Position numbers and translations under genes: made by a program. A DNA stretch of 64,000 nt, taken from positions 62,001 through 126,000 of the forward strand of contig NZ_JABBXD010000001.1 in the NCBI RefSeq assembly GCF_014750655.1. Reading direction: 5' to 3'. Position 1 is the stretch's first letter. Every line of letters starts with the position of its first letter. The notes under the pieces were generated by a model. The model had not been told where the DNA came from. It did no database searches and saw nothing but the letters and a program-made list of their open reading frames with translations. Shown here piece after piece: positions 35,908 to 53,627 of this stretch. This stretch comes from Salinimonas profundi (GTDB lineage: Bacteria > Pseudomonadota > Gammaproteobacteria > Enterobacterales > Alteromonadaceae).

Positions 35908-36236
35908 TTATTTGTAAGGCAGCATGACAAAGCTTGGTAAGAGGGACGCTGCTGCCGGTAATTTTTATAACCTTCCCAGACAAAATTACCCTGATTAAAA
36001 TCAACATGCATGCCGAGCTACTTCATTTATTGCTGATAAAGGATAGTTCGGTCACCAGCCGGATGCTGGTAGCGCTATCAGTTGAGGATACTAAGCGTTT
36101 GAGCATAATATTGGCCCGGGTTCTGCTTATACAACTTTTATCTTGGATGCCCGGCAAGGTCCGGTGCAAAAAATAAGCGCGCTCGATGCGTCGTGACAAC
36201 CACTAAGGTTGTAATAAATGGGTAGCAGGAGGCGCC
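35908..36236. other. Intergenic region before the orphan REC gene
   Basis: No convincing gene. An 80-codon plus-strand frame at 35934-36176 starts with no ribosome binding site and has non-protein-like composition. The region holds the sigma-54-like element at 36112-36127 and an imperfect stem near 36050-36085 (CACCAGCCGGATGCTGGTAG). Confidence 0.45.
36112..36127 (+). promoter_or_regulatory. Sigma-54 (-24/-12) promoter match before the REC gene
   Basis: TGGCCCGGGTTCTGCT has GG at 36113-36114 and GC at 36125-36126, separated by ten bases, and agrees with TGGCAC-N5-TTGC at 8 of 10 positions. The -12 element lies ~110 bases before the start codon, farther than in the other five cases. Confidence 0.45.
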
Positions 36237-36632
36237 ATGATACAAAAATCTGTTCTTAATGTACTTTTAGCTGAAGATGATCCTGTAACGGCTAGTACCA
36301 TTACCAGCGTATTGACTGGCCTGGGCTGGACAGTAGACTTTGCTGCCAGTGGAAAAGCCGCTGTGAGACTTCAGCAGCAGAGAGATTATGATGTGGTGTT
36401 ACTTGATGACACATTACCCGATATGAGCGGAGAGCAAGTTTATCGGGCCATCAAAATGACGGATAAACGCGTCCCACCGGTTTTGTTTTTGCGAAGCACA
36501 GGTGTGCAAAATGGCAAAATCGTCCTCGACGAAGGCGATCAAATGCTACCGGATGTGTCAGATATCAAAGATATGATTTCCCGCTGTCACGCATTGGCGG
36601 CCACGGCACCTGCCATGGCCATTAGTGCTTAA
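36237..36632 (+). CDS. Orphan single-domain response regulator, atypical REC
   Basis: This is a 131-residue receiver domain without an output domain. The acidic pair (LLAEDDPVT) and phospho-acceptor Asp in DVVLLDDTLPDMSG are present. A Thr/Ser switch may be FLRSTG. The otherwise invariant Lys-Pro near the end reads MLPDVSD, so the lysine is missing. Loss of this Lys usually weakens phosphorylation-dependent switching. The gene has a good Shine-Dalgarno (AGGAGG). No kinase is adjacent; the nearest is 13 kb away. Confidence 0.75.
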   Translation: MIQKSVLNVLLAEDDPVTASTITSVLTGLGWTVDFAASGKAAVRLQQQRDYDVVLLDDTLPDMSGEQVYRAIKMTDKRVPPVLFLRSTGVQNGKIVLDEGDQMLPDVSDIKDMISRCHALAATAPAMAISA

Positions 36633-36644
36633 CAATAACGGATC

Positions 36645-37679
36645 CTATTCTGATTCGGGGCTGGCTTTATTGTCAGCTTCTGGCGCAGAAGAAGACGGAC
36701 AGGCATCACCTTCCCGGGTGAGATGCAACTTTGTCAGTAAAGGAAAGTGATCTGATCCATAGCCTTCTAAACGCTTAATATCCACCAAATCGAAATGATC
36801 AGTATGAAAAACATGGTCAAGTGGCCATCGGATTAACCGGTATTTAGCATGGAACGTGTTGAAGAAACCACGTCCGCGACGCGGGTCCCGTGCCTGGCTA
36901 AGATTACGAAACTTTCTGGTTGTGGGTGACCAGGCCACATCATTCAGGTCACCGGCAACGATCACAGGCAACTGCTGATCTAATACCTCTTGACCAACCA
37001 GCGTTAACTCCTCGTCCCTGGGGCCGGCTGTTTCATTCTCTGTTGGACTTGGCGGCTTGGGATGCAGCAGATAGACAATTATGTCATGACCGTCAATCTC
37101 AATAGTCACCTGCATAGAGGGAACATCATCTTCGACGAGATAGCGTAGTTCTTTTTCCTTGAACGGCAATTTACTGTAGAGATGCATGCCATACAGATTC
37201 TCCAATGCGCAGGGAATACGATAAGGGTAGTCATCGTGAATTTTTTCGAGCGCGTCTTCCCAGTCTTTGTTGCTTTCCAGCGTAACCAGCATATCCGGCT
37301 GGTACTTCTCTACCAGCTTTATCAGACCATCAAAGTTTTTATTGTGCATGTAGACATTGCTGGTGAGGATAGAGAACGTTTTTTCTTTAACCGGAGATTT
37401 GATGCGGGTGACCTCCTTTAGCCCTAGCAAAGTATAGGGGACAACCCAGACTGATTGATAGATAAAGCATAAAAACAGCACGACAGCTAAGCCAGCTGCA
37501 GTCATATCAGCTGTGTAATAGAAGTACACTCCCCAGGCCACAACCGTTATGGCAATGATTACCATTTGCTGCACTCTCGGAAATTCCCAAACACGAATTA
37601 ACCAATGTTTACCGGGAAGGTGAGGCGCAATGGTAGTGAAGATCATTATGCCACTGATTACGCACAGGACTTCGAACAT
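36645..37679 (-). CDS. Membrane-anchored endonuclease/exonuclease/phosphatase-family protein
   Basis: This 344-residue protein has three N-terminal membrane spans (residues ~1-90). They are followed by an EEP domain with TSNVYMHNKNFDGL, LVTLESNKDW (catalytic Glu), HPKPPSPTEN, VIAGDLNDVAWSPTTRKF (Asp-x-Asn) and YGSDHFPLLTKLHL (Ser-Asp-His). These residues indicate a metal-dependent phosphodiester or phosphomonoester hydrolase facing one side of the membrane. Substrate unknown; DNA, phospholipid and sugar-phosphate hydrolases all share the fold. Convergent with the REC gene. Confidence 0.82.
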   Translation of the reverse strand: MFEVLCVISGIMIFTTIAPHLPGKHWLIRVWEFPRVQQMVIIAITVVAWGVYFYYTADMTAAGLAVVLFLCFIYQSVWVVPYTLLGLKEVTRIKSPVKEKTFSILTSNVYMHNKNFDGLIKLVEKYQPDMLVTLESNKDWEDALEKIHDDYPYRIPCALENLYGMHLYSKLPFKEKELRYLVEDDVPSMQVTIEIDGHDIIVYLLHPKPPSPTENETAGPRDEELTLVGQEVLDQQLPVIVAGDLNDVAWSPTTRKFRNLSQARDPRRGRGFFNTFHAKYRLIRWPLDHVFHTDHFDLVDIKRLEGYGSDHFPLLTKLHLTREGDACPSSSAPEADNKASPESE

Positions 37680-37918
37680 GGACGTTCCTTAGTTATTTTT
37701 AGCAGGCGGTGCATGCAGTGTTGCAAACATAGTATTCAAATCTTTACGAATTCAGGCGATTACGGTTCATCACCGGTCTGGATCTGTCCCGTCAACGGAT
37801 TAGACAAAATGATGTAAGAGTAAAAAGTTTCTTTGTGCGGTAACCCTTTCAGAGTTGTGCGAGAAGTTTTATGCTAAAACCGCGTTACTTACTCTTTTAA
37901 ATCATAATCTTAAACGCT

Positions 37919-37934
37919 TGGCATGGCTTTGGCA
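37919..37934 (+). promoter_or_regulatory. Sigma-54 (-24/-12) promoter of the BON-domain gene
   Basis: TGGCATGGCTTTGGCA has GG at 37920-37921 and GC at 37932-37933, ten bases apart, with 8 of 10 matches to TGGCAC-N5-TTGC. The -12 element is 34 bases before the start codon. Two TAAGAGTAA-like elements in opposite orientation lie upstream, near 37814 and 37885, and could bind an activator. Confidence 0.65.
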
Positions 37935-37967
37935 TTCATTCATATGACACGAAAAGGAGATTTAGAT

Positions 37968-38621
37968 ATGAAACGAACAATGTTGTCTCTAATAGTTGCC
38001 TGCACCTTAACGACAAGTGCATTGGCAGCAGATATGAAGGCTGAAAATGACTGGGAGAAAGGTGCCAAGGATGCCTGGATAGACGGCAAAGCAGAAGCAA
38101 CGCTGCTATTTAATGGAAACCTTAATTCCTTCGATATCAACACAGATGTGAAAAACGGAAAAGTTATTTTAACGGGCAAGGTAAAAACATCAGTTGATAA
38201 AAAGCTTGCTGAAGAATTGGTTGAGAATATTGATGGTGTCACTGCTGTCGATAACCGCCTGACGATTATGCAGGGTCTGGAAAACAGTGATGGTATGACC
38301 GCTTCAAACGAAATGGATGCCGAGGATGATATGGAAGCGGCGGAAGATGATGCTGAAGAGGCGACTGAAGATGCGTCCAGCGAGCTGTTGGATGCAAAAA
38401 TTGCAACAGTGATAAAGACCCGTTTGCTGATGGATTCAGATATTTCCGGTTTCGACATTGATGTAGATGTGGAGCAGGGCAATGTCACTCTGACCGGTGA
38501 GGTAGAGTCTGACGCTGAACGGGAGCTGGCAATTGAAATTGCGCAAAACGCGTCTGATGTAAAAAATGTTGAAGACAACTTAAAAGTCATGAAGAAAACT
38601 GCAATGACAGATGACAATTAA
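37968..38621 (+). CDS. Periplasmic protein with two BON domains (OsmY-like)
   Basis: The protein has 217 residues from ATG 37968, which has AAGGAG eight bases before it. It has a cleavable signal peptide (LIVACTLTTSALAA) and two BON domains: DAWIDGKAEATLLFNGNL through VDNRLTIM, and DAKIATVIKTRLLMDSDI through EDNLKVMK. They are separated by a very acidic linker (DAEDDMEAAEDDAEEATED). BON domains bind phospholipid surfaces. OsmY of E. coli, also two-BON, is a periplasmic osmotic and stationary-phase protein. Regulation by sigma-54 is suggested by the upstream element. Confidence 0.9.
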   Translation: MKRTMLSLIVACTLTTSALAADMKAENDWEKGAKDAWIDGKAEATLLFNGNLNSFDINTDVKNGKVILTGKVKTSVDKKLAEELVENIDGVTAVDNRLTIMQGLENSDGMTASNEMDAEDDMEAAEDDAEEATEDASSELLDAKIATVIKTRLLMDSDISGFDIDVDVEQGNVTLTGEVESDAERELAIEIAQNASDVKNVEDNLKVMKKTAMTDDN

Positions 38622-38639
38622 TGTCGGGTGGTTAAAAAC

Positions 38640-38662
38640 AAGCGCCTCATGGCGCTTTTTTT
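38640..38662 (+). terminator. Rho-independent terminator of the BON gene
   Basis: AGCGCC (38641-38646), loop TCAT and GGCGCT (38651-38656) are followed by seven T. It lies ~20 bases after the stop codon. Confidence 0.9.
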
Positions 38663-38907
38663 ATGTCTTCACGAAACTGTCATCTCAGAGTGTAAATATT
38701 TCCCTCGGTAAGGAAGAGTTATAGAGGGCCAATTAAGCACCACCTTTAAAAATCCCTACAACTTTTTCTGTACCCCACACTTTTACTGGTCTGCACCTAT
38801 TTTTAGTACTTTTGTATAAGTTGGTGCAATCTTTGTATATATACCTTTAACAAAGACAAATTACGTCGTCTTGTCTATCAGGACCGAAACCCGAAAGGAT
38901 AGGTATC

Positions 38908-39081
38908 ATGAAATTTTTAAAACCAAAGCGCCAGCCTCAGCCTGCAAATCGTTTTCAGAAGTATCTGCAAAGCCAGCCAGTTTTTAATTGGTTTGAACGG
39001 TATGAACAACCAGCAACAGTAAATACAGAGTATCAGGATCCACAGCATGCAAACTGGATCGCCAAGCGAGTAGGTGAATAA
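38908..39081 (+). CDS. 57-residue basic protein of unknown function
   Basis: This short gene reads from ATG 38908, eight bases after AAAGGA (38894-38899), to TAA at 39079-39081. The product starts MKFLKPKRQPQPANRF, has an aromatic centre (NWFERYEQ) and ends ANWIAKRVGE. There is no signal or membrane span. A strong terminator follows at 39104, and ~285 bases of AT-rich sequence precede it, so it looks like an independent unit. I know no family. A sigma-54-like element at 38822-38837 has GT in place of the needed GC, so its promoter is unresolved. Confidence 0.7.
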   Translation: MKFLKPKRQPQPANRFQKYLQSQPVFNWFERYEQPATVNTEYQDPQHANWIAKRVGE

Positions 39082-39103
39082 ACCTTTTACGCGCAAATTC
39101 GAT

Positions 39104-39133
39104 GGCAGAGCGTTTGCTCTGCCTACTCTTTTT
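39104..39133 (+). terminator. Rho-independent terminator after the 57-residue protein gene
   Basis: GGCAGAGC (39104-39111), loop GTTT and GCTCTGCC (39116-39123) are followed by TACTCTTTTT. Confidence 0.9.
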
Positions 39134-39380
39134 AATGAGCAGTTAACATGTATCACTATTTACTCAACAAACACATTATCCAGTCAGTATTCTGTGCACT
39201 CGTGCTCATCGCGATTTAGTATTAGTTGCTTTCATTCACGTATTCTACTGCAACGCTCCTACCCGCAATAAAGCTGAAGTAAAGCGATCATAAAAGGTCA
39301 GGCACCGTATAAATCAACAGGTTACCCATGCTACTCAGACATTTTGCCTGTTGTGATGTAAAACTTTGATAAGGAACACT

Positions 39381-43113: not shown

Positions 43114-43139
43114 AAAAAAACCCGGCGGAGCCGGGTTTT
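43114..43139. terminator. Bidirectional terminator downstream of the acidic lipoprotein gene
   Basis: CCCGGC (43121-43126) and GCCGGG (43130-43135) form the stem. On the minus strand a run of seven T follows (complement of 43114-43120); on the plus strand TTTT follows. It serves the minus-strand lipoprotein gene at 43155. Confidence 0.88.
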
Positions 43140-43154
43140 CTATAAAAATGCAGA

Positions 43155-43382
43155 TTAACAATCGTCGTCTTCTGCATCCATTCCTTCTTTCACATCTTCA
43201 CAAGTGTCTTCAACAGCATTACCTGCATCTTCCATTGACTCTTCCATTTCGTCACTGGCTTCAGACATTGTTTCATCAAGCTCTTCGCCTGCATTCTCTG
43301 CACCGCCGTCATCACACGCTGCTACTGACAGAGCGAACATGCCCACAAAAAGAGTTTTTAATAGATTTTTGTACGTCATCAT
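43155..43382 (-). CDS. Small, very acidic lipoprotein
   Basis: This 75-residue product has a lipoprotein signal (LFVGMFALSVAACDDGG, Cys ~23). The remaining ~50 residues are almost all Glu, Asp, Ser, Ala and Met (ETMSEASDEMEESMEDAGNAVEDTCEDV) with an amphipathic helix pattern and two more Cys near the end. It resembles EcnAB-like or small stress lipoproteins only in architecture. It starts 22 bases after the DUF1328 gene, so it shares its sigma-54-like promoter. It could bind cations or associate with envelope proteins. Function unknown. Confidence 0.75.
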   Translation of the reverse strand: MMTYKNLLKTLFVGMFALSVAACDDGGAENAGEELDETMSEASDEMEESMEDAGNAVEDTCEDVKEGMDAEDDDC

Positions 43383-43404
43383 AGTCCTTGCTCCTTAAAC
43401 GTAA

Positions 43405-43581
43405 TTATACTTTCGGCGATTTGCCGCGTAATGCATTAGCAATTAGTGAAATCACCAAAAGCGCTACAAAAACAAAAAACAAAAATTGGGCAATGCCTGT
43501 TGCCGCACCAGCAATGCCACCGAAGCCAAAAACTGCTGCAATAATGGCAATGATAAAGAATGTAATAGCCCAACCTAGCAT
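43405..43581 (-). CDS. DUF1328 (YtjA-type) small membrane protein
   Basis: A 58-residue product reads from ATG (43579-43581, minus strand) to TAA (43405-43407). It begins [22 protein letters not shown] and ends [11 protein letters not shown], with two membrane spans joined by [10 protein letters not shown]. This is the DUF1328/YtjA pattern. Family members are often stress-induced in Proteobacteria, with no known mechanism. A good ribosome site (GAGGA) precedes it. A sigma-54-like promoter is at 43626-43641. First gene of a pair with the acidic lipoprotein. Confidence 0.85.
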
Positions 43582-43625
43582 GAGTTTATCCTCGTTTTGC
43601 TTCCATTGAATGTCCCTTAAGCTAA

Positions 43626-43641
43626 TGCGGGTTTCATGCCA
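43626..43641 (-). promoter_or_regulatory. Sigma-54-like promoter of the DUF1328-lipoprotein pair
   Basis: On the minus strand TGGCATGAAACCCGCA has GG (43639-43640) and GC (43627-43628) ten bases apart, 7 of 10 matches to TGGCAC-N5-TTGC. It is 45 bases before the start codon. CCTGTAAGAGTGATG lies upstream (~43710), similar to an element upstream of the BON gene. Confidence 0.55.
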
Positions 43642-43823
43642 ATGGGTAAGTATATGAATAAAGTAGAGTTTTTCTTAATATGGCAAGTAAAACTACAAAT
43701 TATTCATCACTCTTACAGGTGATTTGAAGTTTTTACACGAGAGGGAATGATTTTGTTCATTTCCGTAAGCAAAAATTTTGTTGGCTGGTAAACTAACCAT
43801 CTTATTTTCAAAACAAATTTGTT

Positions 43824-44462: not shown

Positions 44463-44464
44463 AC

Positions 44465-44494: not shown

Positions 44495-44514
44495 GCATAC
44501 ATAAGCTTTAAGCT

Positions 44515-44964
44515 TTAGCAAGCGGTGGCATGTTGAAGGGATCGCATCTCGTCATGACACTGCTGCATTCTTGTGCGAATTCGTCTAAGTTCACATGCAT
44601 AATGCTGCGGAGGATCAGTCTCCAACGCACTGTCGATTACACGCAGAACTCTATCCTCAACTTCCTCAAGTTGTTCAATGTAAATTTGATCGCTTGGCGA
44701 TTCCAGTGCCTCCCGCAGTCTTGAATACATACTGCGTAGCCTCACAATCCAGTCCGCGTCATTACTTTCACGCTGTGCAGATTCGGGCAAATAAGGCTTC
44801 AGGGCAGTGACTGCCTGTTGCTTCTCCTCAATCATTCGCCGAAACATCGCCTGGATATTTTGACCAGTGACTTTGTGGATACTGTTCTTGTAGAACTCAA
44901 TGCCACCGTTTAATACCTTAACAATGTCAGATACTTTTTCGACATTCGCAGGTAACTGATTCAT
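44515..44964 (-). CDS. DUF2383 (PA2169-family) four-helix-bundle protein
   Basis: The protein has 149 residues from ATG 44964, chosen because AGGAG lies six bases upstream and because VEKVSDIVKVLNGGIEFYKNSI begins the family domain. Helices with ferritin-like spacing follow: FRRMIEEKQQAVTALKPYL, the central SRLREALES, and IEQLEEVEDRVLRVIDSAL. The PA2169 family is usually found with other stress proteins. No metal-binding set is obvious. A sigma-54 element lies 63 bases upstream. Confidence 0.8.
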   Translation of the reverse strand: MNQLPANVEKVSDIVKVLNGGIEFYKNSIHKVTGQNIQAMFRRMIEEKQQAVTALKPYLPESAQRESNDADWIVRLRSMYSRLREALESPSDQIYIEQLEEVEDRVLRVIDSALETDPPQHYACELRRIRTRMQQCHDEMRSLQHATAC

Positions 44965-45026: not shown

Positions 45027-45042
45027 TGCATGAGGTGTTCCA
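45027..45042 (-). promoter_or_regulatory. Sigma-54 promoter of the DUF2383-type gene
   Basis: On the minus strand TGGAACACCTCATGCA has GG (45040-45041) and GC (45028-45029) ten bases apart and matches TGGCAC-N5-TTGC at 8 of 10 positions. No other gene lies between this and the terminator at 45302-45326. The intervening stretch to 45301 shows no coding frame. Confidence 0.65.
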
Positions 45043-45301: not shown

Positions 45302-45326
45302 AAAAAAAAGCCGCAATCGCGGCTTT
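45302..45326 (-). terminator. Terminator of the DUF883-YqjE-lipoprotein operon
   Basis: AAAGCCGC (45307-45314), loop AATC and GCGGCTTT (45319-45326) are followed on the minus strand by a run of eight T. Confidence 0.9.
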
Positions 45327-45903
45327 AGGGATTAACGACTTTTGATAATCGAGCTAACACCTTTTCGACCTCGAACGCATTGTCACCAGTACTTACCTGA
45401 CTATTGCCCATACGTGCAACAACCGAATAGTAAACATCCTGGGTTTTTGTCTTCTTTGTCCGCAAGTCGCTGTCGCTGACTTCAAAAGGCTGGGCAACAT
45501 CATTACAACCAGACATCGTACACTGCTCTTCTTTAAGTACTGGTGGTAACGTATTCTTTTTATCTCTGACAATCCTTTGACTGATGTTAGCTTTTCTTTC
45601 AATGTCAGTTTTGACGATCGCCACCCAGGAATAACCTTGCTCATCAGCAATTTCAGCTGCTCGATACAGCGTGTATTCCTGAACTAAATCTGCCGGCGTA
45701 TCTTCAGCTGCTTTGAACATGACGCGGTACTGGGCATCATCAAGCTGAACACTGGAATAGCCATAAGCATCGGCGCTTTTAGCAGATTTATAAGCTGTGG
45801 GGCCCGATGAAGAAAAGCTGCTACAAGCACCTAGCGCAGAGCTTAAAAGTGTCACTGCAACGAGTGCACGAACTGGTTTTTTAATGTTACTAAATACTGC
45901 CAT
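45325..45903 (-). CDS. Lipoprotein of the CC0125/CC1285 family
   Basis: This 192-residue protein has a lipoprotein signal (VAVTLLSSALGACSS). The mature protein follows the pattern of the CC0125/CC1285 lipoproteins: AYGYSSVQLDDAQYRVMFKAAEDTPADLVQEYTLYRAAEIADEQGYSW (split here for reading as YGYSSVQLDD, then YTLYRAAEIADEQGYSWVAI). A YSVVARMG strand is near the end. No known function. It is the last gene of the operon starting at 47031, 11 bases after the YqjK-position gene. Confidence 0.8.
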   Translation of the reverse strand: MAVFSNIKKPVRALVAVTLLSSALGACSSFSSSGPTAYKSAKSADAYGYSSVQLDDAQYRVMFKAAEDTPADLVQEYTLYRAAEIADEQGYSWVAIVKTDIERKANISQRIVRDKKNTLPPVLKEEQCTMSGCNDVAQPFEVSDSDLRTKKTKTQDVYYSVVARMGNSQVSTGDNAFEVEKVLARLSKVVNP

Positions 45904-45914
45904 GTATCACCTTA

Positions 45915-46166
45915 TCAGGCTATAAAATTAAAAAACGCAGTTCTCGCAAATGACATCAATGCGACTTTGCGTTTCGAGTCCGGGTTACTTGTAGTCGCAC
46001 CCTTAAATGCGCCATATCCGAATATGCCTAGTAATACCGACGGTTTTGCCATGATAAGCCTGGATTTATGTTTCACATTATCCAAAGCCTGATGCGCATC
46101 ATTCCGAACGCGGGTATATTCAAGGTGAGACTGTTCAACTGACCGTAATTCTTTGTTCAGGAACAT
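45915..46166 (-). CDS. Small membrane-associated protein in the YqjK position
   Basis: The protein has 83 residues from ATG 46166, chosen since GAAGGA lies upstream and it begins just after the YqjE-like stop. It is basic, with an N-terminal helix (NKELRSVEQSHLEYTRVRNDAHQALDNV) and a hydrophobic segment (PSVLLGIFGYGAFKGA). Sequence similarity to E. coli YqjK is not clear, but place and size (after DUF883 and YqjE) match. Probably an envelope stress accessory protein. Confidence 0.6.
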   Translation of the reverse strand: MFLNKELRSVEQSHLEYTRVRNDAHQALDNVKHKSRLIMAKPSVLLGIFGYGAFKGATTSNPDSKRKVALMSFARTAFFNFIA

Positions 46167-46167
46167 A

Positions 46168-46680
46168 CTAATGATCCTTCTCAGATTGAGGTGCTTCAAC
46201 GCCTGCGTGACCGGTAATTGCTTTCCAAACAGGTCGAATTGAAATGTACCTGTAACTATCTAACACCATTTTTGCAAAAAATGCGATCATTATTCCATTC
46301 ATTGCCAACAAAATCAGTGTCGTTAATGCAAGGTGCACACCTGAGCGATCCAATGCAATGCCGATTGCCGCATTGACAATTATCCAGCAAATGCAAGAAA
46401 GGACAAAGGCACCTCCAAGACCGATGGCAGTTAAAATAGCTGACTTTTTAACAAGCGCCGTTTCGCTGGAGACTACATCAGATAATGCAGCAAATTGCGC
46501 CTTTTTAGCATCGATTAGATGCTTGTACGCTTCAAAGGCTTCATGAAAGGTAGTATCGTCAACGCTGGAGTGTTCAGGTACACACGCAAGCGCCCAACCA
46601 GTGTCCCTGGTCGGGCGAAGCGATACAGGCCCATGCGGCCTGAACGATGCTTTTTTAAAATCTGCCATACCTGGCTGCAT
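46168..46680 (-). CDS. YqjE-like (phage holin family DUF1469) membrane protein
   Basis: This 170-residue protein has two adjacent transmembrane segments (AILTAIGLGGAFVLSCICWIIV and a second from LTTLILLAMNGIMIAFF). Before them is a charged amphipathic helix (EAFEAYKHLIDAKKAQFAALSDVVSSETA), typical of YqjE. The N-terminal ~40 residues are extra relative to E. coli YqjE. It lies between a DUF883 gene and a YqjK-position gene, as in E. coli yqjCDEK, an osmotic and stationary-phase cluster. Confidence 0.78.
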   Translation of the reverse strand: MQPGMADFKKASFRPHGPVSLRPTRDTGWALACVPEHSSVDDTTFHEAFEAYKHLIDAKKAQFAALSDVVSSETALVKKSAILTAIGLGGAFVLSCICWIIVNAAIGIALDRSGVHLALTTLILLAMNGIMIAFFAKMVLDSYRYISIRPVWKAITGHAGVEAPQSEKDH

Positions 46681-46686
46681 CGTCCG

Positions 46687-47031
46687 TTACTTTTTACGTA
46701 GCAGGGATGTGACCAACATACCAGCAGCAAATGCAACACCGGCCGCTGCAACCGGATTTTCTACTGCATATTTACGTACGCCAGACGTTAACCACTTTTT
46801 CTCTGCCAGGCGTTTACGCGCTGCTACATTTTCCGCTGAATCCGAAGCGGTAGTACGAATATTTTCCTCTGCGCGAGCCGCTGATGTGGCAAGCTTGTCT
46901 ACTGAAGAGTGTAGTGATTCCTGAATTTTATCTGTCATAGGATGTGTTGACTCCGTTACGCCATTTGAATGTGTTGTGTCCGTCGTTCCCGCACCTTTAA
47001 CTCCTGTGGTGGCTTTCGCTTGCGTTACCAT
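46687..47031 (-). CDS. DUF883 (YqjD/ElaB-type) tail-anchored membrane protein
   Basis: This 114-residue protein has a disordered N-terminus (TTGVKGAGTTDTTHSNG), a long amphipathic helix (KIQESLHSSVDKLATSAARAEENIRTTA) and a C-terminal hydrophobic helix ending LLRKK (NPVAAAGVAFAAGMLVTSLLRKK). YqjD and ElaB bind ribosomes to the inner membrane in stationary phase in E. coli. It is the first gene of the four-gene operon with YqjE-like, YqjK-position and lipoprotein genes. ATG 47031 follows AAGGAG. Confidence 0.85.
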   Translation of the reverse strand: MVTQAKATTGVKGAGTTDTTHSNGVTESTHPMTDKIQESLHSSVDKLATSAARAEENIRTTASDSAENVAARKRLAEKKWLTSGVRKYAVENPVAAAGVAFAAGMLVTSLLRKK

Positions 47032-47071
47032 ACGAATCTCCTTGATTTATGAATGTATGCATTAACTACGT

Positions 47072-47087
47072 TGCAAAGCACATACCA
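47072..47087 (-). promoter_or_regulatory. Sigma-54 promoter of the DUF883 operon
   Basis: On the minus strand TGGTATGTGCTTTGCA has GG (47085-47086) and GC (47073-47074) ten bases apart, with a perfect TTGCA at -12. It matches TGGCAC-N5-TTGC at 8 of 10 positions. The -12 element is ~41 bases before ATG 47031. An inverted repeat TTCTTCGCAAGAA is ~105 bases upstream (47188-47200). Confidence 0.7.
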
Positions 47088-47214
47088 CGAAAAATTAATT
47101 AAAATTATCTTTTATGACAGTAGGTTAAGAAGGGTTAGGGGTGGCAGTACGCCCCCTTGCTGGTAAAAACTGCACAGCATTGTAATTCTTGCGAAGAAAT
47201 TGGATAGCTGTCGT

Positions 47215-49263
47215 TTATGCCAGAAGAGTAGACAAATCGTCTTTACTAACAGGTTTTAACAGTGAGTGAGAAATGTTGTGAAGGGTAAGGTCACTGGCGT
47301 CAGGTTCTCTGCCGCTCACAACAACGATTGTCGTGGTATCATTGATATGCTTTTGCAGCGCATCAGCCAACTCAAAACCGTGATAATCTGGTAATGTGAG
47401 ATCAAGCAATATGAAATCGTATTCCTCTTGATCAACATGGGATATTGCCTGTTCACCGGTGTTTGCAATAGCTACCTGGTGACCTTGATGGCTAATAAGT
47501 AACTGCATAAGATCGGCTGCGTCGTGATCATCTTCGATGACCAACACTCGTTTGGTATCAGAGCCTGGAGACTCTTCCGGCTGCGTATTCTCAGTTTTGT
47601 TTGAAGCATTATCGTTATGACTTATCGACGTGTCAGGACTGGCATTGGCGCCATCTGGCAGACTAACATCTGCTAGAGCAGGATCGGGCGTCCGAATAAG
47701 GTATTTGTCCAGAATCTGCATCAGCGCATTTTTTTCAATGGGTTTGCCCAAAATATCATCAAAGCCTTCGTCCATCAGCGACTGCTTCAGACCTTTACGG
47801 CTTGCCGCAGTAATTGCAACAACGGCGGTTTTGCAATTATGTTTGCGCATCGCTTTAAGTGAGTCAATGCCATTCATGACTGGCATATGTATATCCATTA
47901 AAACCAGGTGAAATGGTTTACCTTCCTGCTCCGCCATCAATACCGCTTCCAGCGCTTTGACGCCATTTTCGGCATAGGCCACCTGAGCGTGACACTGACT
48001 GACCATATGTCCGGTTAAACGACGTAACTCCCGTAAATCATCTACGATTAACACGCGACCTGAAACGTGCAGGTTCATTGCACCGGGCGTTCTTGAACTG
48101 GGCGCAGCGAGGTTCAGTTCATCGCGGGGTTGTTCGGAAATGTCACCAGGATTGATATAAAACGAGAATACACTGCCTTTACCAAAGTTAGATTCGACGG
48201 AAATGTCGCCCCCCATCTTGTGTACCAGTTCCCGACAAATCGCAAGCCCCAGTCCGGCACCGCCGTGATTGGCACGCATGACATCTTCGATTTGTTCGAA
48301 TGGGTGGAAGATGTCATCAAGCTTATCCGGGGGCATCCCGATTCCAGAGTCTTTGACACTGAATCTGAGACGTTCTTCGCCGCTATTATGACTGGTGAAA
48401 ACTTCGAGGGAGACCTCAATGTTTCCCGAGTCAGTAAATTTGACCGCATTACTGATAAGGTTAATTAATACCTGCCGTAAACGGGTAGGGTCTGCTTTAA
48501 TTGACTCGGGTAAGGGAGACTGGCAATTTATGGATAAGCGCAACCCTTTATCTTTAGCTGCCAGGTTCATCAACGAGTGCACATCCGTCATGAAGCCCGA
48601 TAAATTTATATCCTTGGGCGACAACTCCAGTTTATTGGCCATGATTCGAGACATATCGAGCAAGTCATTAAGCAGGCTCAGCAAATGTTTGCCATTAGTG
48701 TGGATGATAGAAAGCTCTTGCTGCATGCGTTCGTTGCCCGCATCATCCAGTAGCAATTCTGTGTATCCCAGAATTGAAGTTAGAGGCGTTCGTAACTCGT
48801 GACCCAGGTGGGCCAGAAATTTGTCTTTGGCTTTATTTTGTTGCTCGACCTTGTGTCTTTCAATCCGCTCATTTTCTATTTCACGACGTACCATTGCATA
48901 GCGCATTGTACGCATGAAACGTGGCGTCTCAATCTCGCTCTTTGTCAGATAATCGGCAGCGCCGGCGCGCATGACCATTTCGTCGACTTTGGCATCTGAT
49001 TGTCCGGTCAATATAACAACCGGAATACTTATACCTTTGGATTTGATGATATTAAGGACATCGATGGCGTTTTCAGCGCCAAGAATATAGTCGAGCAGAC
49101 AGATATCAAAAAGTTTACAACGAAACGCTGCAACGGCTTCAGCGCTGTTAGTTACCCAGGTGATATCAAACCTGGGCTCCTGACATTGCGATAAGTAATC
49201 CGCAGTAAGAAAATAGTCATCTTCATCATCTTCAATAAGAAGTACGCGGATTACATCAGTCAC
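47215..49263 (-). CDS. Hybrid histidine kinase: REC-HisKA-HATPase-REC-REC
   Basis: This 682-residue cytosolic protein starts with GTG 49263. Order: REC1 (LIEDDEDDYFL, acceptor in ICLLDYILG), a dimerisation/His domain (FLAHLGHELRTPLTSILGY), the ATP-binding domain (NLISNAVKFTDSG, KDSGIGMP, GGAGLGLAICREL), REC2 (LIVDDLRE, LVLMDIHMPVMNG, GKPIEKN), and REC3 (VIEDDHDA, FILLDLTLPDYHG, LKPVSKDD). It has no signal or membrane span and so is a soluble signal integrator. It is the last gene of the operon, after the Rcp1-type regulator (22 bases between). Confidence 0.93.
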   Translation of the reverse strand: MTDVIRVLLIEDDEDDYFLTADYLSQCQEPRFDITWVTNSAEAVAAFRCKLFDICLLDYILGAENAIDVLNIIKSKGISIPVVILTGQSDAKVDEMVMRAGAADYLTKSEIETPRFMRTMRYAMVRREIENERIERHKVEQQNKAKDKFLAHLGHELRTPLTSILGYTELLLDDAGNERMQQELSIIHTNGKHLLSLLNDLLDMSRIMANKLELSPKDINLSGFMTDVHSLMNLAAKDKGLRLSINCQSPLPESIKADPTRLRQVLINLISNAVKFTDSGNIEVSLEVFTSHNSGEERLRFSVKDSGIGMPPDKLDDIFHPFEQIEDVMRANHGGAGLGLAICRELVHKMGGDISVESNFGKGSVFSFYINPGDISEQPRDELNLAAPSSRTPGAMNLHVSGRVLIVDDLRELRRLTGHMVSQCHAQVAYAENGVKALEAVLMAEQEGKPFHLVLMDIHMPVMNGIDSLKAMRKHNCKTAVVAITAASRKGLKQSLMDEGFDDILGKPIEKNALMQILDKYLIRTPDPALADVSLPDGANASPDTSISHNDNASNKTENTQPEESPGSDTKRVLVIEDDHDAADLMQLLISHQGHQVAIANTGEQAISHVDQEEYDFILLDLTLPDYHGFELADALQKHINDTTTIVVVSGREPDASDLTLHNISHSLLKPVSKDDLSTLLA

Positions 49264-49285
49264 AGCTTATCCTAATTATAATTGC

Positions 49286-49738
49286 TTAGTCGTGAGGTAG
49301 TTCGACGAACTCAATCCAGTACCGGCCCAATGCACGCATTAAATCTACCAAACCATCGAAATTAACAGGTTTTGTAATGTAGGAGGCGCATCCAAGATCA
49401 TATCCGCGAAGCATATCTTCTTCTTCTTTAGATGTTGTCAGGATCACAACCGGAATGCTGCGAAGCGCCGGGTCTGATTTAATCTCCTGCAACGCCTCAC
49501 GGCCATCCATACGTGGCATGTTTAGGTCAAGCAAGATAAGGCTGGGGCGGGGTGAATCGCTCGGATCAGTGTATTTGCCCTCGCGACGCAGAAACTCCAA
49601 CAACTCTACGCCATCTTCAACGCAATACAGGTTATTCAGAACGCGACTTTCTTTCAGTGCGTCCAGTGTTAACAACCGATCATCTTCATCATCATCGGCC
49701 ATCAGAATGTTGATAGGCAAGGCTTCTTTAGCTGTCAT
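49286..49738 (-). CDS. Rcp1-type single-domain response regulator
   Basis: This 150-residue REC protein of the Rcp1/phytochrome-associated type has ILMADDDEDDRLLTLDALKE, the phospho-acceptor in LILLDLNMPRMDGREAL, TTSKEEED for the switch Thr/Ser, and ITKPVNFDGLVDLM for the conserved Lys. No output domain. It overlaps the upstream CHASE3 kinase by 11 bases, so the pair is translationally coupled and probably exchanges phosphate. Confidence 0.92.
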   Translation of the reverse strand: MTAKEALPINILMADDDEDDRLLTLDALKESRVLNNLYCVEDGVELLEFLRREGKYTDPSDSPRPSLILLDLNMPRMDGREALQEIKSDPALRSIPVVILTTSKEEEDMLRGYDLGCASYITKPVNFDGLVDLMRALGRYWIEFVELPHD

Positions 49739-51242
49739 TATTTACTACTCCCAGACTTGAAGTATTCGCGAATGGCTCACCATTCAACGGCATTATTATA
49801 TAAAATTTTGCCCCTTTGTCGGGCTCACTGACAGCTTTAATCTGCCCATTGTGACGCTCAACAATCCGGCGACATACCGCAAGACCAATTCCCGTTCCTT
49901 TGTAAGTGCTGCGCCCGTGAAGTCGTTGAAATGGCGCAAAAATCTTCTCTGCGAACGACTGGTCAAAGCCGATCCCGTTATCTTCTATGGTTATTGTCGT
50001 CCAGTCAAACTGATTTACCAAATGAAGGCCTTTCAATTCGCTTTCTTCTGACTCTCTGGAAGTGATGCTGATAACCGGATTAGTGTCAGGCTTTCTGAAT
50101 TTGATAGCATTGGAAATCAGGTTCAGTATGAGTTGCTCAATTTGCGATTTATCTGCCTCAATGACAGGTAATTTGCCTACTTCAACCTTTGCATCTGCTT
50201 CTTCTATGGCAATCTCAAGATCCTCGATGACCGCTGCAGTGACGTCGTTCATATCGACTTCTGTAAAATCTTTTCCGCGGGTAGACACGCGGGAGAACGC
50301 AAGTAGGTCGCTGATAAGCATCGACATTCTTTCTGCGGCATTAAGCATACGCTTCAAAAAGTCTCTGCCACGTTCGTCAATGACATCGCTGTAGCCATCA
50401 TCGATTCTATTGCCAAACGCGCGAATTTTTCGCAAAGGTTCCTGTAAGTCATGAGAAGCAACGAACGCAAAATCCTCTAGCTCACGGTTACTCCGGGCCA
50501 ACTCGTCTGAATAGACCTGAAGTTCCTGAGTACGCTGTGAGATTTTATATTCCAGCTCTTCATTTATATTTTCCAGCGTACGCTGGTGACGCAGGTTTTC
50601 ACGCATATTCATTTTAAGTAAAACGAAGATAGCGATAACCAAAAAAGCAGTTGTCACGCCGGAAATAATCAGTGTATTAACCGAATCTCTGCGCAACTTC
50701 ATCAGGTTCGCAAGGTGTTCACCCTGAACCGTTCGTTCAGACTCGTCTATTTCGGTAAAAATTGATTCGAACTGATCATATAAAAGCAAGCCCCTGTCTG
50801 ACGTCACCATCTCTATTGCTGCTGCAAAATCTCCGCCTTTGGCCAGATTAACGGTAGATACCATTTCACTGATTTTTTTCCGGCTCAGGGAAATCAGCAT
50901 GTTGATTTTTTCATCCTGATTAGGCAGATCGGAGACCTGTGCGCTGATTTCAACCTCATCAAACAGGCTTTCTATGCGTAGAAGGGTGGTGTTGTAATCG
51001 TCAAGGTAGCTTTCGTCTCTGGTTAGCAAGAATCCGCGCTGACCAGATTCCGCTCTTAATACCGCCATATGAAGGGTGTTGACCGAGTTAATCACCCGGT
51101 TGGTGGTAAACAGCCTGGCTTCCAGTGAGGCAAGCTCATCCAGGGTACTAACCACATAGAAGGAATTTCCGGTAATGATAAAAATAATCACGCCCAGAAG
51201 GACGACCCAGCTATAAACGGATTGTACTGCTTTATTTAGCAT
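49728..51242 (-). CDS. CHASE3-domain sensor histidine kinase
   Basis: The product has ~504 residues from ATG 51242. Order: membrane span (~10-28), CHASE3 extracytoplasmic sensor (LEARLFTTNRVINSVNTLHMAVLRAESGQRGFLLTRDESYLDDY is its core; the key AESGQRGFLLT is diagnostic), second span (~190-210), a coiled coil, the His-box FVASHDLQEPLRKI, and an ATP-binding domain with NLISNAIKFR, DNGIGFD and GTGIGLAVCRRI. The DLQEPLRK box is typical of phytochrome-like kinases paired with Rcp1 regulators. It begins four bases after the stand-alone DHp gene. Confidence 0.93.
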   Translation of the reverse strand: MLNKAVQSVYSWVVLLGVIIFIITGNSFYVVSTLDELASLEARLFTTNRVINSVNTLHMAVLRAESGQRGFLLTRDESYLDDYNTTLLRIESLFDEVEISAQVSDLPNQDEKINMLISLSRKKISEMVSTVNLAKGGDFAAAIEMVTSDRGLLLYDQFESIFTEIDESERTVQGEHLANLMKLRRDSVNTLIISGVTTAFLVIAIFVLLKMNMRENLRHQRTLENINEELEYKISQRTQELQVYSDELARSNRELEDFAFVASHDLQEPLRKIRAFGNRIDDGYSDVIDERGRDFLKRMLNAAERMSMLISDLLAFSRVSTRGKDFTEVDMNDVTAAVIEDLEIAIEEADAKVEVGKLPVIEADKSQIEQLILNLISNAIKFRKPDTNPVISITSRESEESELKGLHLVNQFDWTTITIEDNGIGFDQSFAEKIFAPFQRLHGRSTYKGTGIGLAVCRRIVERHNGQIKAVSEPDKGAKFYIIMPLNGEPFANTSSLGVVNNDS

Positions 51243-51246
51243 AGGA

Positions 51247-51474
51247 TCATGATTCCGACTGCGAATCGCCAAGCGCATCCATCATTTGGGTAAGCGCCTC
51301 ACTGCAATCCTTGGTACTTATAATAATTTTGTCCAGTGCCTGTTTGGCACGGTCCGGCGGTACACTGCCATCCAGCGCCATTTTTACCAATTCCGCTTGC
51401 ATTGAAATACGGTTAAGGGGCTTTCTGGCATCATGTACGTGCGCCGCCAGGGCTGCAAACTCTTTATCATTCAT
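51247..51474 (-). CDS. Stand-alone histidine-kinase DHp-like protein, 75 residues
   Basis: This protein comprises a single His-kinase dimerisation-like hairpin. Helix 1 holds AAHVHDARKPLNRISMQAEL, matching the H-box H-D-x-R-x-P-L-N with the likely phospho-His at residue 14. Helix 2 is PDRAKQALDKIIISTKDCSEALTQM. No ATPase domain follows. It lies between the sigma-54 activator (15-base gap) and the CHASE3 kinase (4-base gap) in one operon. It could be a histidine phosphotransfer protein (compare Spo0B), or a decoy or scaffold. Length ends at DSQSES, so it is not a fragment of the neighbouring kinase. Confidence 0.75.
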   Translation of the reverse strand: MNDKEFAALAAHVHDARKPLNRISMQAELVKMALDGSVPPDRAKQALDKIIISTKDCSEALTQMMDALGDSQSES

Positions 51475-51489
51475 AATGTCTTAACACAC

Positions 51490-52824
51490 TTAATCGTCTT
51501 TGCTAAGGTCGCCGTATGCGTGCAAACGGTTGTAAAGGGTTTTTGTGCTGATGCCGAGCATCTCAGCGGCAAGCGTCTTGTTGCCGTTTACTTTCTCAAG
51601 CGTCGCATAGATAAGCTCTTTTTCAACATCTTCAATCGTGCGACCGGCTTGCAAGGCAGGGGTTGTAGATTGCTTTTTGGCAAAGGGCGATTCGATAGTT
51701 TTAGGCAACTCCAGCGCTGACTTGTCTGGATCGCTCATTATTGCCGCACGATGAACAAAATGACGCAGCTCTCGAACATTTCCTGGCCAGTCGTATTCTT
51801 TTAATGTTTCAAGCTGGCCTTCTTTCCAACTAAACTGTGTTTCGTTTTCACGGTTTAGCTCATCAATAAATGCTGTTGCCAGTAAGGGGATATCTTCCTT
51901 TCGCTCGCGCAAGGGCGGAATGGTGATGGGAAAAACCGCCAGACGGAAATAAATATCTTCACGCAATACTTTACTTTCTGCAATGGCTTCCATAGTTCTG
52001 TTGGTGGCAGAAACCACCCGGCAATTTACTGGTATCGTTTTAGTGCCCCCAACGCGAATCACAACCTTGTTTTCCAGCACGCGAAGCAAATTGGGCTGCA
52101 TGTCTATTGGCATTTCGGTTATTTCATCAAGGAACAATGTGCCGTTCTCGGCTTGCTCGAACACACCAGACTTACGTCCAACAGCGCCGGTAAACGCGCC
52201 TTTCTCATGTCCGAATAACTCACTGCCAATCAGTTCTTTGGAAAACGCGCCGCAGTTGGTAGCGATGTAAGGGCCTTCAACATCTGATGCGGCATGAATA
52301 GCTTCTGCTACAACTTCTTTACCCACGCCGCTTTCTCCCAGCAGCATGACGTTTGCGCTGGTTCGGCTTACCCGCTCAATAAGTTTGTAAAGCTCTTTCA
52401 TTGGCTTAGATTCACCAATCAGGTGGCCGAAATATTTTTTAATATTTGACCCTGAGCTTTGTGATTGAACTTCGGTCTTTCCGGAAAGCACAGCTTCGAT
52501 TTCTTCGCGTTGAATCGGCTTTACCAGATAGTCAATGTTGGGACCGCACAAACCTTTGATGATACCGCGCACCGAAGGGTGACCGGTGATCAGGGTTACA
52601 CGGGGGCGCTTTCCTAATGCGTCAAGCTCATCGAAAAGATGAACACCGCTGCCGTCAGGCAACATAAAGTCGAGAAGGATATGGTCGAAACTTTCTTTTT
52701 TAAGCCAGTCGCGGGCTTCTTCAAGGTTCGCCGCAGTAAGGACTTCGTGGCCTAAAAACTCAATTATCGTACAGGCGACATCAGTAAATTCAGGATCATC
52801 GTCAACGAGTAAAACAGTTAACAC
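51490..52824 (-). CDS. NtrC-family sigma-54-dependent response regulator
   Basis: The protein has 444 residues from GTG 52824. A REC domain (LLVDDDPEF, HILLDFMLPDG, DYLVKPIQRE) is followed by an AAA+ domain with Walker A LLGESGVGKEVVAEAI, the sigma-54 contact loop GHEKGAFTGA, Walker B GTLFLDEI and arginine-finger region. A C-terminal Fis-type HTH (GNKTLAAEMLGISTKTLYNRL) closes it. It is therefore a phosphorylation-controlled activator of sigma-54 promoters. It is first in the five-gene signalling operon and divergent from exoD, which has a sigma-54 match. Confidence 0.95.
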   Translation of the reverse strand: MLTVLLVDDDPEFTDVACTIIEFLGHEVLTAANLEEARDWLKKESFDHILLDFMLPDGSGVHLFDELDALGKRPRVTLITGHPSVRGIIKGLCGPNIDYLVKPIQREEIEAVLSGKTEVQSQSSGSNIKKYFGHLIGESKPMKELYKLIERVSRTSANVMLLGESGVGKEVVAEAIHAASDVEGPYIATNCGAFSKELIGSELFGHEKGAFTGAVGRKSGVFEQAENGTLFLDEITEMPIDMQPNLLRVLENKVVIRVGGTKTIPVNCRVVSATNRTMEAIAESKVLREDIYFRLAVFPITIPPLRERKEDIPLLATAFIDELNRENETQFSWKEGQLETLKEYDWPGNVRELRHFVHRAAIMSDPDKSALELPKTIESPFAKKQSTTPALQAGRTIEDVEKELIYATLEKVNGNKTLAAEMLGISTKTLYNRLHAYGDLSKDD

Positions 52825-52854
52825 AAATATTTACCTTGCTTCATTTGCTTTGCC

Positions 52855-52873
52855 AATAAGTAAATTACTTATT
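52855..52873. promoter_or_regulatory. Perfect 9-1-9 palindrome: candidate activator binding site (UAS)
   Basis: AATAAGTAA (52855-52863) and TTACTTATT (52865-52873) flank one base. The centre is ~120 bases upstream of the predicted exoD start of transcription, a usual place for an NtrC-type activator, and 40 bases from the activator gene's start codon. It may serve both. A half-site, TTACTTA, recurs upstream of the BON gene. Confidence 0.5.
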
Positions 52874-52960
52874 TTTAACGCATTAAGATCAGTTTAATTG
52901 GCTGATGAGTTTAGCGCTAAAAGCCTGAAATTGGTAGAATCTTTATATGCTGTTTACTTT

Positions 52961-52976
52961 TGGCACAATACTCGCT
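52961..52976 (+). promoter_or_regulatory. Sigma-54 promoter of exoD
   Basis: TGGCACAATACTCGCT has GG at 52962-52963 and GC at 52974-52975 ten bases apart and matches TGGCAC-N5-TTGC at 9 of 10 positions, the best in the window. It is 46 bases before the exoD start. Confidence 0.75.
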
Positions 52977-53021
52977 TAGAAAATTACAATCTATTCATTT
53001 TATTTGCACAGGTAACCATCA

Positions 53022-53627
53022 ATGATAAGCATGGCTGTTGAACGGTCCATGAGCTTGCACGAGTTGCTCGGGAAAATGCAATGCAAGGGAGATGAAGAAA
53101 AAGTCACGTTTGGTGAGTTACTTAACGTTATGGAAAAGCGTGGGTTTGGCCCCATGCTCGCCGCGCCGGCATTTATTTGCTCAACCCCGGTTGGTGCAAT
53201 TCCGGGAATTCCTACGGTTACCGGTATAACGATCTTTCTTATCTCACTGCAAGTTTTACTGGCAAGAAACCATCCATGGTTACCATCTGCCATCCGTCAA
53301 ATTGGCATAAATCGCGATTCACTGAATAAAGGTATTGGAAAAGCCAAACCGGCGGTAACCCATGTTGATAAACTTCTTATGCCGCGCTGGTTTTTTATGC
53401 GGCAGTTTGTTTTCAGAAGTCTCATAGCTCTGAGTTGTGCTATTTGCGGGCTGATGATGGTACCGTTGGAATTGGTCCCTTTTTTAGGATTAATTCCAGC
53501 TGTCGCTATTTTCATTATGGCAGTAGGGATGGCGACTGATGATGGCGCCGTAGCACTTTTGGGGTTGTCTATCGCAATACTGGGTATTGTAATGGGAGGA
53601 CAGCAGCTTATTTCGTTAATGAGTTGA
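53022..53627 (+). CDS. exoD: ExoD-family membrane protein
   Basis: ExoD proteins affect exopolysaccharide production and alkaline tolerance in rhizobia; their biochemistry is not known. The 201-residue protein carries the family patterns VTFGELLNVMEKRGFGPMLAAPA, AIPGIPTVTGITIFLISLQVLLAR (with P-x-P/G turns) and four membrane spans including GLIPAVAIFIMAVGMATDDG. It ends 20 bases inside the convergent EAL gene. Divergent from the sigma-54 activator, which is likely its regulator. Confidence 0.87.
   Translation: MISMAVERSMSLHELLGKMQCKGDEEKVTFGELLNVMEKRGFGPMLAAPAFICSTPVGAIPGIPTVTGITIFLISLQVLLARNHPWLPSAIRQIGINRDSLNKGIGKAKPAVTHVDKLLMPRWFFMRQFVFRSLIALSCAICGLMMVPLELVPFLGLIPAVAIFIMAVGMATDDGAVALLGLSIAILGIVMGGQQLISLMS

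Follow-up and report, generated by a model that had tools for sequence, protein, structure and literature searches.

The window analyzed here, a stretch of 64,000 nucleotides (nt) at positions 62001–126000 of contig C1 of the 4.07-Mb Salinimonas profundi genome (G000), holds a cluster of envelope- or stress-type genes around an NtrC-type activator gene and a phosphorelay. Conserved sigma-54-type promoters lie before these genes, and sequence comparison suggests that they are likely opened by the activator encoded at 51490–52824 on the minus strand (coordinates are those of the window unless a contig or locus is named), a reading to which we give a probability of about three in four. The initial annotation had described the cluster as a regulon with its own phosphorelay. 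The conserved promoters beside a conserved phosphorelay with an NtrC-type activator agree with this interpretation, whereas exoD, the DUF2383 gene and an orphan receiver-domain (REC) gene lack the enhancer shared by the other members. The set was also thought to be local, which it is not, as genes for CsbD, hemerythrin and a second BON protein elsewhere in the genome carry the same kind of promoter.

Conserved sigma-54-type elements

The −24/−12 elements were defined by GG-N10-GC geometry and scored as matches, out of 10, to TGGCAC-N5-TTGC. All six elements of the initial annotation are present in the correct orientation with 7–9 matches, namely before the orphan REC gene (36112–36126, plus strand, 8/10, low-scoring), the BON gene (37919–37933, plus strand, 8/10), the DUF1328 gene (43627–43641, minus strand, 7/10), the DUF2383 gene (45028–45042, minus strand, 8/10), the DUF883-like operon (47073–47087, minus strand, 8/10) and exoD (52961–52975, plus strand, 9/10). 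The distance from the 3′ end of the element to the likely start codon is 34–63 nt at five genes and 110 nt at REC, which agrees with the spacing first described. GG-N10-GC sites of at least 7/10 number 124 in the whole window, and the consensus with three mismatches is not enriched in it (577 observed against 595 expected), so plain consensus counting was dropped as proof of the elements. What makes the six elements special is their conservation and their ranks under a matrix from other genomes, not consensus matching alone.

Among 58 relatives of the same genus searched for an orthologue of the activator, 53 have it in full length (81–100% identity), in G043 it is broken up over two contigs, and none was found in G005, G006, G022 and G046. 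Regions of 20 kb from 20 of these 53 genomes, from the 11 other genera whose orthologues are closest and from the own genome make up 32 loci, in which sites of at least 7/10 on the sense strand within 200 nt upstream were counted. Such sites precede the BON gene in 22 of 23 loci, DUF1328 in 25 of 28, DUF2383 in 15 of 17, the DUF883-like gene in 16 of 17 and exoD in 11 of 13, whereas the antisense strand gave 3, 0, 2, 1 and 2 sites, respectively, and shuffled sequences about 0.6 each. Conservation in related genomes, which had been named as a check on the elements, thus holds for these five genes. Sites are few at the control genes EEP (0/12), MlaA (3/20), YfbR (1/16) and LysR (2/10). A 9/10 site is seen about 250 nt ahead of MlaA in the window (39103–39117, plus strand); the MlaA count given here refers to 200 nt in 20 relatives. 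Lipoprotein-45, the product of the last gene of the DUF883-like operon, has a site in 4 of 20 loci, all four being L046–L049. Five loci without the DUF883-like gene retain this lipoprotein, and in L046–L049 a 9/10 site and the enhancer described below stand directly before it (the enhancer is exact in three and has one mismatch in L049).

The base composition around the sites is consistent with this picture. A total of 98 sites were collected by taking the best site of at least 7/10 within a set distance range, with REC sites from five and lipoprotein-45 sites from four chosen loci. The base following GC is A or T in all 98, and the base following TGGCAY is a purine in 92 of them; neither column was scored in the selection. 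Both are known preferences of sigma-54, and the own genome has one rpoN match. A sigma-54 matrix trained on other genomes only was then applied to both strands of 800 kb of the own genome (about one-fifth), where exoD ranks 1, BON 2, DUF1328 4, the DUF883-like operon 7, DUF2383 12 and REC 22. With the orthologues of each gene left out of the training, the ranks become 4, 3, 7, 39, 48 and 106, in the same order. Taken together, these comparisons strongly support sigma-54 promoters at five of the six places.

The REC element recurs. The best REC matches in other loci are often paralogues (8/28), while a 7–8/10 site lies 109–131 nt before the aligned start in all six loci listed with a syntenic REC gene. 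Its score is low, however, and G006, which has no activator, carries a 7/10 match before REC, so REC may be under sigma-54 but independent of this activator, or the match may be a weak coincidence.

A shared candidate enhancer

Alignment of the upstream regions reduces the conserved blocks to GTAAA-N3-TGCA, in either orientation. In the form GTAA-N4-TGCA, this candidate enhancer lies about 75–120 bp upstream at the promoters of the BON, DUF1328, DUF883-like and CsbD genes and at part of the hemerythrin promoters. In the window, it reads GTAACCCTTTCA at the BON promoter (37840–37851, plus strand, with a second GTAA at 37820), GTAAAAACTTCA at the DUF1328 promoter (43725–43736, minus strand) and, on the plus strand, GTAAAAACTGCA at the promoter of the DUF883-like operon (47163–47174), the latter two being found by both the pattern and the joint model described below. 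Within 220 nt and with one mismatch allowed, GTAAA-N3-TGCA occurs at DUF1328 in 21/25 loci, at the DUF883-like gene in 13/16, at BON in 16/22 and at lipoprotein-45 in 4/4, against 0.3–1.7 in shuffled sequences, and is rare at DUF2383 (2/15), exoD (1/11) and REC (0/5). The looser GTAA-N4-TGCA, also with one mismatch allowed, was found in 24/25, 14/16, 20/22 and 4/4 of the former group and in 4/15, 1/11 and 1/5 of the latter. An enhancer matrix built with the gene in question left out exceeds the 95% shuffle level at DUF1328 in 25/25 loci, at the DUF883-like gene in 14/16, at BON in 15/22 and at lipoprotein-45 in 4/4.

Paired enhancer sites are usual for such activators (PMC11841059). Here, a second GTAA in the same orientation lies 19–23 bp off in 21 of 24 DUF1328 enhancers, 12 of 14 DUF883-like enhancers and 9 of 20 BON enhancers, compared with 1.4, 1.0 and 1.1 in shuffled flanks; the figures are lower for hemerythrin (6/26, shuffled 1.3), CsbD (5/35, shuffled 1.6) and lipoprotein-45 (0/4, shuffled 0.1). 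The enhancer distances show helical phasing (R 0.52 at 10.5 bp, p 0.002, for 24 distance classes and a uniform null), which is suggestive only, as the period was scanned afterwards and orthologues are not independent. When exoD, DUF2383 and REC were searched to 350 nt upstream, also for the symmetric GTAA-N4-TTAC, the matches were at or near the shuffle level, with scattered high enhancer scores in this group, for example near −270 and −320 in two REC loci. Visual inspection also suggested dyads at exoD and DUF2383, but these were inconsistent from one species to the next and were discarded.

A joint model of enhancer and promoter, trained on other genomes, was scanned over the 800 kb and a 14-kb piece of contig C3. 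DUF1328 (36.5), the DUF883-like operon (36.2) and BON (29.5, rank 3) take the top three places, followed by 26.3 in the fourth place; the best block-shuffled stretch reaches 24.4, and the second BON gene 22.7. Two joint patterns (enhancer, 62–92 bases, −24/−12 element) were also searched in 16 genomes and gave 31 and 16 matches, 47 in total, compared with 6 and 1, 7 in total, when reversed. Twenty-four of the 47 lie in the cluster (DUF1328 11, BON 3, exoD 1, DUF883-like 8 and lipoprotein-45 1). Another six precede a second BON gene, hemerythrin genes in two genomes, a CsbD gene, an off-cluster DUF883-like gene, whose label is below the cut-off, and a ferritin-like gene that we read as Dps. The second BON gene with the joint pattern in the own genome is at C3:34296. 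The remaining 17 matches have no clear meaning, and some of them lie in what we take to be rplQ coding sequence.

The members outside the cluster were followed through the genus. Hemerythrin is encoded in 49 of the 58 same-genus genomes and is absent from six genomes that have the activator; 41 loci were collected and 40 examined, one being dropped for its short upstream region. All 40 have a site, with none on the antisense strand, and 26 have an enhancer, against 3.0 in shuffled sequences. CsbD is encoded in 54 of the 58 genomes, and 36 of the 39 loci examined have a site (antisense 1), with an enhancer at 35 of these 36, against 1.9 shuffled; the CsbD gene of the own genome has an exact enhancer and a site. 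Two of the hemerythrin loci and one of the CsbD loci counted had been found by the joint pattern itself. One common enhancer implies one activator for the genes that bear it, and the motif comparisons thus make a single activator for BON, DUF1328, the DUF883-like operon, CsbD and most hemerythrin genes a well-supported proposal.

Several further sites were noted outside this set. Two similar genes at G000:C1:386935 and G000:C1:1890, both on the minus strand and presumably glycosyltransferase-like, have sigma-54-like sites of 14.5 and 14.0 bits and enhancer-like stretches with joint scores of 26.3 and 19.6, respectively. Sigma-54-like sites of 15.1 and 15.3 bits lie outside called frames at G000:C2:49236 and C2:215374, the first of which precedes an exported protein that, we assume, resembles PEP-CTERM proteins; the PEP-CTERM family has its own sigma-54 response regulator. 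A second DUF1328-like gene is located directly behind the hemerythrin gene in G003 (L130, 5565–5777).

The activator, its phosphorelay and rival explanations

The activator heads an operon-like row on the minus strand (52824–47215). Domain matches and alignment give it the order REC, AAA+ and Fis helix-turn-helix (HTH) with GAFTGA (51490–52824), and it is followed by a 75-residue stand-alone HisKA (DHp) protein, a candidate phosphotransfer protein (51247–51474), a CHASE3 sensor histidine kinase with two hydrophobic segments (49728–51278), a stand-alone receiver protein (49286–49738) and a hybrid kinase with the order REC-HisKA-HATPase-REC-REC (47215–49263). The description of an NtrC-type activator with an intact GAFTGA loop, in an operon with kinases and relay proteins, is confirmed by these matches, and both GAFTGA and D52 are invariant in 11 of 11 aligned orthologues. 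The activator falls in no named NCBIfam equivalog (NtrC, AtoC, ZraR, GlrR, PspF and others), the best 25 of 87 matching models all being below the cut-off. Sigma-54 autoregulation of the operon was considered and given up, sense sites being present in 5 of the 32 loci. In L052 (G067), a second copy of the activator (52–54% identity) with its own gene of the 75-residue type lies about 5 kb off in the opposite orientation.

By its domains and conserved Asp and His residues, the part list of a phosphorelay is complete: kinase, receiver, candidate histidine phosphotransfer protein and output receiver. The kinase and receiver motifs are present in the own sequences of the remaining relay proteins. 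In every one of the 32 regions, the gene of the 75-residue protein is the immediate neighbor of the activator gene on the side of the kinases, and H14-D15-x-R17-x-P19-L20-N21 is kept in the 18 of these loci that were aligned (18/18). L059 gave no match to the CHASE3 kinase or to the receiver gene, and there the hybrid kinase follows the 75-residue gene. The AlphaFold2 model of the protein is a helical hairpin with a predicted local distance difference test (pLDDT) score of 91. The natural PDB entries closest to the protein are DHp domains of kinases, but these matches are weak (SrrAB kinase, E 0.094; HK853, E 0.13) and none reaches E 0.001, so structural proof of a phosphotransferase was abandoned. 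The protein would presumably serve as the histidine phosphotransfer step of the relay.

The genes with the elements have the following products. The orphan receiver-domain protein (36237–36632, plus strand) matches PF00072, and the exported BON protein (37968–38621, plus strand) matches PF04972 in two stretches; the latter is OsmY-like only, as its 62.4 bits do not reach the OsmY equivalog cut-off of 174 in NCBIfam. The DUF1328 small membrane protein (43405–43581, minus strand; PF07043) is followed by a small acidic lipoprotein-like protein (43155–43382, minus strand), which has orthologues in relatives and no match in Pfam or NCBIfam. The DUF2383 gene (44515–44964, minus strand) encodes a four-helix-bundle protein of the PA2169 family. 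The DUF883-like operon, on the minus strand, comprises a DUF883/YqjD-like protein (46687–47031), a YqjE-like membrane protein of uncertain start (46168–46590), a small protein known as an open reading frame with orthologues in relatives (45915–46199) and a lipoprotein of the CC0125/CC1285 family (45325–45903). The DUF883 label is provisional, with DUF883_C below the cut-off (E 0.043), and YqjE, carried over from the initial annotation, has no Pfam match. ExoD (53022–53627, plus strand) is a membrane protein of its family (PF06055). These products had been called envelope or stress proteins. Judged from the families, the set points to general stress more than to stress of the envelope.

Genomes without the activator connect it to the enhancer-bearing genes. 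G005, G006 and G046 have lost not only the activator but also BON, the DUF883-like gene, hemerythrin and CsbD, while rpoN is kept; the G005 assembly is a draft in about 590 contigs, 7% contaminated, and the DUF883-like search made for these genomes was positive in three other genomes. CsbD is missing in three of the four activator-less genomes and in one of the 54 others (G034), with a Fisher p of 0.0005 that ignores kinship. Of these three, G006 is the one that retains DUF1328, with 96% identity and in its usual position next to YfbR; the 250 nt upstream contain no GG-N10-GC site, and the enhancer-like stretch is weak (10.4 bits vs. 12.0–26.4 in the others). The first of the two joint patterns matches once each in G005 and G046, both times in an rplQ-like stretch, and not in G006 or G022. 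From synteny and this joint loss, we infer with some support that the activator of the enhancer-bearing set is the one at 51490–52824.

More distant relatives show a similar arrangement in part. Among named genomes, the closest orthologues of the activator occur in Pseudoalteromonas fuliginea, Paraglaciecola marina, Motilimonas sp. E26 and Gilvimarinus agarilyticus. In L060, from another genus of the same family, and L061, from another family of the same order, BON, DUF1328, DUF2383 and DUF883-like genes lie at most 10 kb from the phosphorelay; L061 and the Motilimonas locus L134 are probably the same record. In the loci of Paraglaciecola, Motilimonas and Gilvimarinus, sites stand ahead of BON-like, DUF883-like, DUF2383 or lipoprotein genes, and a few others stand before unrelated frames. 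None of the target genes was seen in the Pseudoalteromonas contig piece, and the other 76 of 80 activator-like loci kept from named genomes (3–21 kb each) contain no target proteins at E 1e-5. In L119–L121, similar gene groups surround a related activator (47–48% identity) without the receiver domain, and sites lie before DUF1328 (L119 and L120) or BON (L120 and L121), which looks like a conserved output under an altered input. These receiver-less activators (L119 8059–9396, L120 6931–8313 and L121 7737–9059) consist of AAA+ and Fis HTH domains behind an unrecognized N-terminal part.

A number of observations weigh against control of the whole set by this activator. The leave-gene-out enhancer level is reached by exoD in 0/11, by DUF2383 in 5/15 and by REC in 0/5 loci; in the own genome, hemerythrin has a site with no enhancer within one mismatch, and the enhancer of the second BON gene is weak (5.8 bits). 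L042 lacks the DUF883-like gene, and its lipoprotein has no site of at least 7/10, while DUF1328 and BON of L122, near a 36%-identical activator, carry no such sites. A one-mismatch enhancer-like stretch lies about 206 nt before the DUF1328 start of G006. The activator-less G022 keeps CsbD with site and enhancer, a DUF883-like gene with a site, and hemerythrin; no activator, BON or DUF1328 was found in this draft, which is 95% complete and divided into about 300 contigs, and an assembly gap would be a likely cause of the exception. The BON search in the four activator-less genomes had no internal positive control, BON being found elsewhere in a separate search, and the losses in these genomes may be one event. 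The own genome has nine PF00158 matches above 200 bits and, besides the activator, eight strong proteins of this family. Moreover, matches of at least 7/10 occur upstream of the stand-alone receiver gene in 26/32 loci (antisense 11), inside the coding end of the kinase (about 49740–49940, minus strand), and likewise upstream of the 75-residue gene (12/32), the hybrid kinase (9/32), YqjE (9/15, antisense 5) and the small lipoprotein (21/28). Since what lies upstream there is for the most part the coding sequence of the neighboring gene, conservation of a match does not always mean a promoter. The receiver-upstream matches could reflect codon constraint or an internal promoter.

Three other explanations can be weighed against this evidence. 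If the elements matched a loose consensus by chance, this would fit the lack of enrichment in the window, and the initial annotation had allowed that one or two of them might do so. On matching alone this caution was justified, but the orthologue counts, the antisense and shuffle controls, the unscored columns and the matrix ranks contradict it; chance is refuted for the five main sites and possible for REC, and as an account of the whole set it is very improbable. The genes could also be transcribed mainly by sigma-S or sigma-70, like their E. coli counterparts, with the sigma-54 promoters secondary. osmY depends on sigma-S in E. coli (PMC5650638), and in Alteromonas Te101 sigma-S is present and up-regulated, as is rpoN (PMC5864184). 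Yet footprinting places the −24/−12 element and the enhancer among the best conserved upstream blocks, and in G006 the DUF1328 site is absent together with the activator. On a search directed at sigma-54-type elements and enhancers, we consider this explanation unlikely.

A division of the sigma-54 promoters among more than one activator, the local one serving BON, DUF1328, the DUF883-like operon, CsbD and hemerythrin and another serving exoD, DUF2383 and perhaps REC, is possible, if somewhat doubtful. It would explain why exoD and DUF2383 hold strong −24/−12 sites without the shared enhancer and why REC retains its site in G006, and the nine PF00158 matches leave room for it. Nevertheless, exoD and DUF2383 lie inside the syntenic cluster beside the activator, and the exoD gene of G001 has a pattern-matching enhancer, though with the site 189 nt before the start codon.

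If the activator at 51490–52824 does open these promoters, the anatomy of the relay suggests a sequence of steps. Phosphate flow would start at the membrane-bound CHASE3 kinase (49728–51278) and the hybrid kinase (47215–49263) and would pass via the receiver protein and the 75-residue DHp protein to D52 of the activator, which would then assemble on GTAA-N4-TGCA, often with the second GTAA about 20 bp off, 75–120 bp upstream of −24. Its GAFTGA loop would remodel the sigma-54 polymerase, so that BON, DUF1328 with the lipoprotein, and the DUF883-like operon could be transcribed. CsbD, hemerythrin and the second BON gene elsewhere in the genome would be transcribed together with them. For exoD and DUF2383, which have good sigma-54 sites and no recognizable enhancer, the same system might act through a diverged site, or another activator might be responsible.

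Comparison with known systems

On a wider scale, we tentatively propose that a whole general-stress program (BON/OsmY-like, CsbD, DUF883/YqjD-like, DUF1328, hemerythrin and, in some species, Dps/ferritin-like proteins) could be wired to sigma-54 and to a dedicated multi-step phosphorelay in which a DHp protein stands alone. This would hold for most of the genus and for relatives, among them Paraglaciecola, Motilimonas and Gilvimarinus. Such an activator-gated response would replace the stress sigma factor or act beside it, a proposal that is plausible but still short of probable. If it is true, sigma-54 would direct a stress program in the role that a stress sigma factor usually has, and general stress genes of the sigma-S/EcfG type would be under a sigma factor that is silent until an activator spends ATP. 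The response would be all-or-none and signal-gated with a defined enhancer, and the conserved phosphorelay and the DUF1328, DUF2383 and DUF883-like families would gain a function by association. The predictions of the model are concrete: a motif, a list of targets, and species from which most of the set has disappeared. Searches of the open-licence literature gave no account of a sigma-54 regulon made up of BON/CsbD/DUF883 genes.

Dps and YqjD-like proteins are members of the E. coli sigma-S regulon. That regulon also shares the BON/OsmY-like target (PMC5650638), whereas the promoters here are of the sigma-54 type and would need an activator. csbD of Listeria is sigma-B dependent and negatively affected by sigma-L, which is different from the present system (PMC8568364). 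In Desulfovibrio vulgaris, two-component sigma-54 activators for envelope stress (DVU1419 and DVU3381) and for the general stress response (DVU3305) provide a precedent by description, although the terms “OsmY,” “CsbD,” “DUF883” and “BON domain” do not occur in the main text of that report (PMC4641369).

PspF has no receiver domain, and the present activator scores far below the PspF model. The phage-shock circuit is nevertheless alike in using sigma-54 with a dedicated enhancer-binding protein for stress, though its targets are others (PMC3162934, PMC4641369). In the accounts of Borrelia, the Rrp2-RpoN-RpoS pathway likewise places an NtrC-type activator and sigma-54 above stress genes, but there sigma-54 drives rpoS and rpoS drives the genes, whereas here the stress-type genes themselves carry the sigma-54 sites. 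Spo0B is a DHp-type phosphotransferase. The 75-residue protein can be compared with such phosphotransferases and with the DHp domains of histidine kinases: it matches HisKA, but it has no ATPase domain.

The NmpRSTU system of Myxococcus xanthus is similar in several respects. Its phosphorelay, which has several kinases, one of them a hybrid, and a receiver-only protein, ends in an NtrC-type activator; the system uses sigma-54 promoters with paired enhancer sites, and its regulon holds a hemerythrin and a universal stress protein (PMC11841059). It differs in its enhancer (GCGCA-N5-TGCGC), in the absence of a stand-alone DHp protein from the relay as described, and in a regulon for oxygen use rather than for BON/CsbD/DUF1328 (PMC11841059). 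The comparison was made on the architecture and the regulon as described.

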